32,436 bases of DNA, from IMG/VR virus record IMGVR_UViG_3300021962_000384, positions 1 to 32,436 of that record; one strand, 5' to 3'. This document shows, piece by piece, positions 11,362 through 13,463 of the stretch (the first letter of the stretch is position 1; the number at the start of each line of letters is the position of its first letter). Source of the stretch: a virus. Below the pieces are notes generated by a model, which ran no database searches, had not been told where the DNA came from, and was given only the letters and a program-made list of their open reading frames with translations. Both the position numbers and the translations under genes were made by a program.

Positions 11362-12219
11362 TTACGCTGCGATCGCTTCGGCTTTAGCGTCCAGCGCGTT
11401 GATATAATCCGCCGCTTTCTGTGCAAGCGCCGCCGCCTTGAAAATAGCCTTGCTGTCATCACGGCATGCTTTAAGCCAGTGGCCGATATATCCGGCATGT
11501 CGTAATTCGCCTTGTATTGCGTAATCCTGACACAAAAATGCAGCGCCCATTTCGGCGACTAATTCCTCGAAAGCATACGCCGGATTGCCGAAACGGCCCT
11601 TGTCTAGCTGACGGTCTAGCCTATGCTTTGCGCCTGTCCAGTGTGTCAATTCGTGGAAAGCGGTAGCGTAATAGGATGCCTCGTTATCGAAGGCGGTCTT
11701 ATTCGGTAACTGGATGCGATCTTGCGATGGCATGTAGAACGCACTGTCTCCGCCGTGGCCGATGATTGCGCCGGTCTTAACGATGCGATCATCGCATGCC
11801 GGTATCGGGTTGAATCCGCCGACGATTGCTTCCGGTTCCGGTATCTGTGCGTCGGTCTGCTCGATATTGAAAACGTAGTATGCTTTAGCGACACAGTATC
11901 CGGTTTTTTCTGTTTCGCCGGAATCGTTTACCGTTTCCTTGCTGACAGGTTTAAAAAATACAATCTGAGTGCCTTTGCTGCCTTTTTTAACCTGAACGCC
12001 AGCAGCTTGCCATTGTTTAAACGTCGCCCATTCTGGACGGGTAAACCCTTGCGCCATGCTGGACATACCGCACAGCAACCGGTTGATACCTTGATAAGGT
12101 TTACCGCTAAAATTGTTTTTATCTGCGCTGCCGTCTACTTTCCACGGCTTAATCCACGGCGCCGCGCCTTTCTCAAGCTCGCTGATAATCTTGGCTGTAA
12201 CGTCGTCATATATGCTCAT
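11362..12219 (-). CDS. ardC: ArdC-like antirestriction protein with zincin domain
   Basis: A 285-residue protein. The start at ATG 12219 is chosen because GAGGG lies seven bases upstream; ATG 12225 would sit too close to it. The N-terminal ArdC domain (about 1-125) has IYDDVTAKIISELEKGAAPW, then PYQGINRLLC and GSKGTQIVFFKP. The C-terminal zinc metallopeptidase domain has HELTH (189-193) in YYATAFHELTHWTGAKHRLD and the third ligand E219 or E223 in FEELVAEMGAAFL. ArdC proteins bind single-stranded DNA and protect entering DNA from type I restriction. Expression from its own strong promoter fits early action. First gene of its operon. Confidence 0.9.
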   Translation of the reverse strand: MSIYDDVTAKIISELEKGAAPWIKPWKVDGSADKNNFSGKPYQGINRLLCGMSSMAQGFTRPEWATFKQWQAAGVQVKKGSKGTQIVFFKPVSKETVNDSGETEKTGYCVAKAYYVFNIEQTDAQIPEPEAIVGGFNPIPACDDRIVKTGAIIGHGGDSAFYMPSQDRIQLPNKTAFDNEASYYATAFHELTHWTGAKHRLDRQLDKGRFGNPAYAFEELVAEMGAAFLCQDYAIQGELRHAGYIGHWLKACRDDSKAIFKAAALAQKAADYINALDAKAEAIAA

Positions 12220-12239
12220 TTTCATTCCCTCGCAGTGTC

Positions 12240-12254
12240 CGGTAACGTTTACCG
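12240..12254. promoter_or_regulatory. Operator-like inverted repeat downstream of the ardC promoter
   Basis: CGGTAA (12240-12245) and TTACCG (12249-12254) form a 6-bp inverted repeat around CGT, lying about eight bases past the -10 box in the initially transcribed region of ardC. It differs in sequence from the 8550-8568 palindrome, so a different regulator is implied. Confidence 0.5.
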
Positions 12255-12261
12255 TGCGAAC

Positions 12262-12291
12262 ACAATACAAAGGTATGAATGTCGCTGTCAA
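12262..12291 (-). promoter_or_regulatory. Leftward sigma70-like promoter of the ardC operon
   Basis: On the minus strand a perfect -35 TTGACA (12291-12286) is followed by an 18-base spacer and TATTGT (12267-12262). The ardC ATG follows at 12219. This is one of the best consensus matches in the window, fitting immediate expression after DNA entry. Confidence 0.65.
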
Positions 12292-12334: not shown

Positions 12335-12634
12335 ATGATGGCATTGCCTAAGAGAAAGCGCAGGAAACCTGGAATTGAGAATGATTCTCAACAACAACAG
12401 CAGCATTCTATACGTAATGAGAATGATTCTTATCTATCAAGTCTCGATGAGTTAGTGATTGCAGTTAAGGGTAGGATTAAACAAGATGAAGTTAGTAAAT
12501 ACTCACTGACGGATATCAAGGTTAGTGAATACTTACTTACTATCATTCATCGTCAGCAGCAAGAGGCGCTGCCAATGCCGAACGCTGATGCCCTGGCTGA
12601 AAGTGTCCTGATCCTAGCATCCGGTAGGGGTTGA
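12335..12634 (+). CDS. Unknown protein with internal short repeats
   Basis: A 99-residue frame with AAAAGGA upstream; ATG 12335 or 12338 may be used. The N-terminus is basic (ALPKRKRRKPG), followed by a polyglutamine run inside two copies of ENDS (encoded by identical GAGAATGATTCT at 12377-12388 and 12419-12430). Further on are two similar segments, VSKYSLTD and VSEYLLTI, from near-identical 20-mers 30 bases apart. The gene is more AT-rich than its neighbours and stands alone, transcribed away from ardC. No family recognised. It could be a DNA-binding or regulatory protein acquired recently (inference). Confidence 0.55.
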   Translation: MMALPKRKRRKPGIENDSQQQQQHSIRNENDSYLSSLDELVIAVKGRIKQDEVSKYSLTDIKVSEYLLTIIHRQQQEALPMPNADALAESVLILASGRG

Positions 12635-12844
12635 CATGGTGCATACGTTCGTATGTATCGTGTGACAGGGGCATTGCGACGTGTCGCATGTGTCGCGGCG
12701 CTTGTTTGCGCTTGTTCGGCGCTTGCCTGCCTGATGCGCGGCCAGCGGAAGGCACCCTATCCCCCCCCACCCCCTGGCCTGATCGAGTGGGGGTTCCTCT
12801 AAATTTTTAGGCTATATTTTTGTGGTAGCGTTTTTTAAGGTAAA

Positions 12845-12873
12845 AGAACCTCATCCGTATATACGGGGGTTCT
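12845..12873. repeat. Nested palindrome
   Basis: The perfect palindrome CCGTATATACGG (12855-12866) is flanked by outer arms AGAACC (12845-12850) and GGTTCT (12868-12873), giving an interrupted extended hairpin. It follows an AT-rich segment and has no T run after it, so it is more like a protein-binding or processing site than a terminator. Confidence 0.6.
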
Positions 12874-12915
12874 CAAAAAGAGAGTGGCACCTTGTTTATC
12901 TAGGCTGGCGGTGAT

Positions 12916-12970
12916 TTGCCTGGATGCTCTGGTTCCCGAAGTTAGCTTGTTGTCCCATCCGGGCAAGCTA
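12916..12970 (+). other. Mutually exclusive RNA stems, candidate structured leader
   Basis: The 11-mer at 12916-12926 (TTGCCTGGATG) can pair with 12956-12966 (CATCCGGGCAA), all Watson-Crick but one G-U. The 7-mer TAGCTTG (12943-12949), lying in its loop, can pair with CAAGCTA (12964-12970), which shares 12964-12966 with the first stem. The two cannot fully form together, the layout expected of a switching or pseudoknotted RNA. I could not match it to a known RNA family. Confidence 0.4.
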
Positions 12971-13199
12971 GGCTAGGAGAATTCCACCCATTAGCCACGT
13001 TTATCCTGTTTGGTCTGCCACCTACCGTACAGAGGGCTGGATTATGGCCCCACGGAAATAATCATACTACAGCCAAAAAGTGGTTGCAATAGGTTTTATG
13101 GTGATATACACTTTTGTTGAAGCCGAAAGCTGATTTGTACATTCCCTCCAGTGTACGCCACCTGTCAGTGAGTAGGCTTCCTTTTAATGGAGAGGACAA

Positions 13200-13463
13200 A
13201 TGGCATACGAAATGAAGGCTGGTTGGGGTTCTGCTTTTGGTAATGACCAGAAGAAGGAAGATTGGCATGCTGACTTCAGGGGTAAGGTCATGTTGCCGGA
13301 TGACACTGGCGGGCAGGTTAGGTTCCTTGATGTATATCGCAAGAAGGATAAGAACGGTAAGGAATATTTTACTGTCAAGATTGGGAATCTGATGACTGGC
13401 CAGGCGCACCTTGCCAAACCTGCTGGTGGTGTTAAGGAAATGAAAGACGATATTCCGTGGTAG
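13200..13463 (+). CDS. Small protein with SSB-like acidic C-terminal tip
   Basis: An 87-residue protein with a GGAGAGG ribosome-binding site. The middle is beta-rich (GKVMLPDDTGGQVRFLDVYR, then KNGKEYFTVKIGN, about residues 28-63), compatible with a small OB-like barrel and recalling DUF736-type proteins. It ends in MKDDIPW, very close to the DDIPF tip with which bacterial SSB recruits its partners. A single-stranded DNA-binding or SSB-mimic function is inferred from that tip. First gene of the late block, just after the structured region and before the small terminase gene. Confidence 0.6.
   Translation: MAYEMKAGWGSAFGNDQKKEDWHADFRGKVMLPDDTGGQVRFLDVYRKKDKNGKEYFTVKIGNLMTGQAHLAKPAGGVKEMKDDIPW

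Follow-up and report, generated by a model that had tools for sequence, protein, structure and literature searches.

A conserved, pseudoknotted RNA element in diverse phages of betaproteobacteria

Positions 12842–13054 of a virus record of 32,436 bases, the whole of which was analysed and is called the window here, probably form a gene in their own right for a noncoding, structured RNA of roughly 210 nucleotides, which host sigma-70 RNA polymerase would transcribe from the minus strand. The window encodes an O-like replication initiator, RecE/RecT, MazG, terminases and a head–tail connector (portal-like) protein, and its TerL shares 77% identity with that of MEP301, a cultured OM43 phage that also carries the RNA element. 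As judged from sequence comparisons, the element recurs in many otherwise different phages of betaproteobacteria. The coordinates of its features are given in Table 1.

Table 1. Features of the RNA element and its promoter in the window
Feature	Positions	Strand	Evidence or remark
Sigma-70-type promoter, TTGCAA-N17-TATGAT	13061..13089	−	9 nt before the first base of Pc
Putative structured noncoding RNA gene	12842..13054	−	Identity relative to flanks, covariation, noncoding test, promoter and G-U usage
Pc, 5′-terminal hairpin GGGGCCAUAAUCCAGCCC	13034..13051	−	Two-sided changes; 5′ strand of PK2 lies in its loop
Pa (13006-13009/13029-13032) and Pb (13012-13014/13024-13026)	13006..13032	−	Two-sided changes in every helix pair
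PK1, strand in Pb loop (TGCCAC on plus strand)	13016..13021	−	Pairs with 12884-12889
PK1, partner strand (GTGGCA on plus strand)	12884..12889	−	Pairs with 13016-13021; beside P0
First GAUAAAC motif, single-stranded	12999..13005	−	Near-invariant, but within the search pattern
Second GAUAAAC motif, single-stranded	12894..12900	−	Near-invariant; outside the search pattern
P4, closes the inner domain	12903-12906 with 12993-12996	−	78% paired over 30 sequences
P2 hairpin (7-bp stem plus tip 12954-12956/12961-12963)	12943..12970	−	Covariation
11-bp stem (12916-12926/12956-12966)	12916..12966		Present, not conserved; exclusive with P2
P0, variable hairpin (TCTC/GAGA in the window)	12871..12883	−	Adjoins PK1
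PK2 strand near the RNA 3′ end	12853..12856	−	Pairs with 13039-13042 in the Pc loop
Possible terminator, window lineage (GAACC..GGUUC hairpin, then UUUU)	12842..12873	−	Direct sequence reading

An element shared by many phages

The element stands out from its surroundings when the window is compared with a related contig (L003). The two are 91.5% identical over 12842–13054, a value that derives from two near-identical contigs in which the same gap is present, whereas the gap to the left shows 63% identity and the flanking genes for ssb and the terminase small subunit show 74% and 76%. A profile made from the window, this relative and MEP301 located the element in more contigs with related terminases. 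The most conserved part, GTTTAT...GGRCTGGRYNATGGYCC, served as the search pattern and matches at least 120 stretches in the viral collection; at least 114 distinct elements with sufficient flank were gathered from contigs that are viral or, in a few cases, bacterial. The matches from the earliest exact-pattern searches were mostly chance ones in coding sequence and were discarded.

Among bacterial genomes, the element was found in a Nitrosomonadales MAG and in a prophage of Paraburkholderia. Of 398 genomes in the Paraburkholderia family group, 6 match a covariance model built on the 3′ part of the element; five of the six have GTATAT in place of the first GTTTAT, and these elements lie in phage-gene surroundings with terminase and primase-helicase genes. 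Burkholderiaceae loci L248–L252 and L253–L257 carry the GTATAT variant and have a different conserved sequence at the place where the promoter is expected. Among named phages the element was found only in MEP301 and the environmental record MW202825, and a search of plasmids did not find it. Several records begin or end at the element, namely G006 (65-114), G007 (31-82 and 40671-40722) and MW202825 (38-108), where either real genome ends or assembly breaks may lie; because identical 50-mers of co-occurring phages also break assemblies, we do not read these contig ends as genome termini.

Covariation supports two pseudoknots

We counted base pairs over 30 divergent sequences whose positions were set by sequence motifs rather than by complementarity. 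Paired cells amount to 91.9%, compared with 68.7% in shuffled sequences, and the covariation score of 0.585 is far above the values obtained with slid partners (0.059–0.115) or shuffled sequences (0.148; reached in 0 of 500 shuffles). Since Pc and one GTTTAT motif belong to the search pattern, the search itself accounts for part of their conservation; PK1, Pa, Pb, P0, P2 and P4 lie outside the pattern.

The RNA is predicted to start near 13052–13054 and, in the window lineage, to end near 12842. It opens with Pc (minus strand GGGACCAUAACCC...), where GGGC/GGCC is replaced on both sides by GGAC/GGUCC in MEP301 and L205. The pairs of PK2, which joins the loop of this hairpin to a strand near the 3′ end, are always matched, as ACCC/GGGU, AUCC/GGAU, GUCC/GGAC or GCCC/GGGC. 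The loop of the Pa/Pb hairpin holds one strand of PK1, in which each of the five counted pairs covaries and appears as three or four Watson-Crick types; its strands match their own partners in 53 of 57 combinations, but in 31% when partners are swapped. The corresponding values for P4 are 21 of 33 and 24%, with two-sided changes in all three counted pairs. A P0 stem of at least 4 bp can be formed by 89% of 57 distinct sequences, as opposed to 22% after shuffling, and is built from 44 different stems. The possible terminator of the window lineage overlaps the PK2 strand, and a general intrinsic terminator at the RNA 3′ end was not found across the family.

A preliminary description of this locus had proposed a switching or pseudoknotted RNA on the basis of two competing stems, both of which are present: 12916-12926 (TTGCCTGGATG) pairs with 12956-12966 (CATCCGGGCAA) over 11 bp with a single T-G pair, 12943-12949 (TAGCTTG) pairs perfectly with 12964-12970 (CAAGCTA) over 7 bp, and positions 12964-12966 are used by both. 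The 7-bp stem is a conserved part of the fold, the base of P2, and is supported by covariation, with stem variants that include GUUG/CAAC, GCUUG/CAAGC and GCCAG/CUGGC; of 13 distinct sequences, 11 have Watson-Crick pairs at the tip and the remaining two have G-U there on the minus strand. The 11-bp stem, in contrast, was not found beyond the nearest relatives, and on the minus strand it includes an A.C mismatch in the window and more of them in L003; a switch between the two stems finds no conserved evidence. The proposal of a pseudoknotted RNA holds in that PK1 and PK2 covary, although neither is made by these two stems. The additional stems placed near 13025–13055 also exist, as Pa and Pb (13006–13032) and Pc (13034–13050).

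Folding energy does not bear out the argument that such a density of stems is unlikely by chance. The plus strand of 12880–13200 folds at −94.1 kcal/mol, no lower than its shuffles (mean −94.7, z = 0.10), and 12842–13054 on the minus strand gives z = 0.20. As the mean z is 0.13 over 31 family members, energy is uninformative for this RNA family. Thus, a real RNA that covariation reveals can be discarded by folding-energy z-scores.

Transcription is probably from the minus strand

An independent scan of 12640–13220 recognizes the minus-strand site at 13061–13089 as the only promoter-like sequence, and a promoter signal was not found in the plus-strand flank. MEP301 carries TTGCAA-N17-TATAAT. 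Over 95 loci, a TTGACA/TATAAT-type promoter ends 5–11 bases upstream of Pc on the minus strand, with a score of at least 5 in 80 loci (15% of shuffles) and at least 9 in 51 (1.3% of shuffles). The place of the promoter is constant while its sequence differs in 80 of the 95 relatives, and a sigma-70-like promoter was not recognized in several GC-rich lineages (L111, L115, L138 and L216). The −35 element of the RNA promoter, the palindromic TTGCAA, may double as part of a divergent promoter for the ssb operon (TTGCAA...TATACA, 13084–13112).

Pair usage points in the same direction. When read on the plus strand, the helix ends of the inner domain contain 110 A.C and 41 G.U combinations, where composition predicts a ratio of 0.9, and this excess of A.C agrees with the minus strand being the RNA. 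Inner domains on the minus strand also fold slightly better than shuffled sequence (mean z −0.64 against +0.07). Pc lends weak support to the plus strand through one invariant closing U-G that may be no more than part of the loop. The promoter, G-U and fold comparisons together overturn a plus-strand model, and transcription of the RNA probably proceeds leftwards and away from the late operon. The locus had been described as a leader of that operon, a reading that is wrong because transcription is probably from the other strand; the orientation of the element to the operon also varies.

The same observations bear on whether the palindromes might work as DNA, in a packaging, origin or recombination site. 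Terminase genes adjoin the element and some contig ends lie nearby, as such a site would lead one to expect, but loop-to-strand pseudoknot covariation, the excess of minus-strand G-U pairs, a promoter of variable sequence at a fixed distance and the patchy occurrence of the element among phages that share a terminase make this explanation very improbable.

The element lacks coding constraint

The conserved part can be read as a peptide, ATFIPLVADYRREGWVMAP, in some lineages, and open frames in L127, L063 and L036 give similar peptides, as would be expected of a protein-coding remnant. Other lineages, however, are frameshifted or stopped in this reading. The 721 substitutions between 41 close pairs are spread evenly over the codon positions (236/244/241), indels between close pairs are mostly of 1 nt, and open frames are no commoner than in shuffled sequences. 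At the level of this alignment the coding hypothesis is refuted, and we dropped it as having next to no probability. Covarying helices and the absence of coding constraint together support a structured noncoding RNA, whose transcription is predicted from the promoter.

An accessory RNA with variable gene context

The element neighbours initiator, primase-helicase or recombination genes, and its direction varies among lineages. In the window, the nearest minus-strand gene downstream of the RNA encodes an anti-restriction protein (phrog_7245, 11362-12291). A C-rich block (CACCCTATCCCCCCCCACCCCC...GGGGG) and, after it, an AATTTTT tract occupy 12745–12812 (about 849–915 in L016). Every relative examined has them between the initiator and the genes for ssb or terminase, whether the RNA is there or not, which makes this stretch a candidate site for packaging or an origin.

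In one lineage (L112, L117, L121, L122, L143 and L155) the RNA runs straight into the replication-initiator gene and could be its 5′ UTR. The start codon of the O-like initiator lies 8–14 nt past the PK2 strand in this L112/L117/L143 lineage, with GAGG as a possible ribosome-binding site, and some other lineages have co-directional RecE, primase-helicase or small-protein genes. This arrangement would suit a cis-acting leader of minus-strand early genes, whether a switch, a translational control element or an antiterminator like put. Against such a leader, the window lineage, MEP301 and the L095 group have a convergent gene next to the RNA and none that begins where the RNA ends, the downstream gene is not constant, and close relatives retain the genes without the RNA; we consider it unlikely. 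In L128, L146, L151 and L220, a small cysteine-rich protein (ESPCIFQCRLESIDDIELC...CGRT) begins right after the RNA on the same strand.

A covariance-model search, in which relatives with the element score at least 55 bits, found no match in ten near-full-size relatives whose TerL is 79–83% identical and which keep the gene order. The absence from these ten relatives and the varying orientation suggest that the element is an accessory, possibly trans-acting RNA. BLASTP clustering over 22 phage genome sets, which could miss a very divergent partner, found no protein cluster common to all 14 carriers, and a host partner is therefore likelier than a phage one.

These comparisons also weigh on a replication-origin RNA, which, like ColE1 RNA II, would act as a preprimer or form an R-loop and so help to start phage DNA synthesis. 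O-like initiators, primase-helicases or RecE genes adjoin the element, and a read-through transcript in the window would enter the G-rich stretch 12812–12745. The RNA is nevertheless missing from relatives that share the initiator, the C-rich block and ssb, and the C-rich block and the RNA are apart in an inverted lineage, so that an origin function is improbable.

Relation to known RNAs

ColE1 RNA II and other origin preprimers combine a strong promoter with a structured RNA near replication genes. The window element likewise has a promoter, a structured RNA and nearby replication genes, but close relatives manage without it and a matching Rfam family is absent. HK022 put is a structured phage antiterminator RNA that could meet host RNA polymerase; it works in cis where early operons begin and makes the polymerase transcribing it resistant to termination. 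The orientation of the window element to operons, by contrast, varies. The pRNA of phi29 resembles the element in being a small structured phage RNA with loop pairings, and in the window the element lies near packaging genes; it differs in that the element has no Rfam match and occurs with different terminase types. A phi29-type pRNA is needed by the packaging motor, and the relatives with 79–83% TerL identity and no element argue, indirectly, against that assignment.

The preliminary description recognized no known RNA family, and this view stands under both gathering and relaxed thresholds. Rfam 15, a comparison that took in pRNA, GOLLD, ROOL, ToxI, 6S, riboswitches and ribozymes, gave zero matches in the window at the gathering score, chance matches only in 12600–13210 at E up to 5 and, for nine homologue loci at E up to 1, two unrelated sub-threshold matches that both lie outside the element. 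GOLLD and ROOL are described in PMC12286853 as large, highly structured phage and prophage RNAs that contain pseudoknots and are accessory. The window RNA is similarly phage-borne, structured, pseudoknotted and accessory, but it is about 210 nt long rather than over 600–800 nt, lies away from tRNA islands and lacks an Rfam match. A description of the element was not found in the available portions of PMC12286853 and PMC8040213, on structured phage RNAs, and of PMC8024684, mainly open literature, and the last of these, the MEP301 paper, does not mention a noncoding RNA in the portion available. We rate the element as a new family among structured phage RNAs of unknown function, one for which an earlier description is possible.

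A possible role in the host cell

Our tentative reading, which we hold at somewhat less than even confidence, is that the RNA acts in trans as an accessory whose GAUAAAC motifs and body bind or decoy a host component. Host sigma-70 RNA polymerase would start the minus-strand transcript just upstream of Pc, the loop of this 5′-terminal hairpin would pair with the strand near the 3′ end to form PK2, and the loop of the next hairpin, Pb, would pair with the strand beside P0 to form PK1. Both pseudoknots would draw the RNA into a compact body around the multiloop closed by P4 and leave the two GAUAAAC motifs exposed, so that body and motifs could engage the host component, perhaps to serve host takeover or counter-defence. 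A little more doubtful still is the broader proposal of a new class of accessory phage RNA, defined by a double pseudoknot and two GAUAAAC motifs, that would move between unrelated phages of betaproteobacteria and, unaided by any phage protein, disable or redirect a host component.

Aquatic phages and Burkholderiaceae prophages thus carry a widespread structured RNA that has apparently gone unrecognized and is missed by current annotation. Because the RNA is present in a cultured phage and dispensable in close relatives, its role is directly testable.
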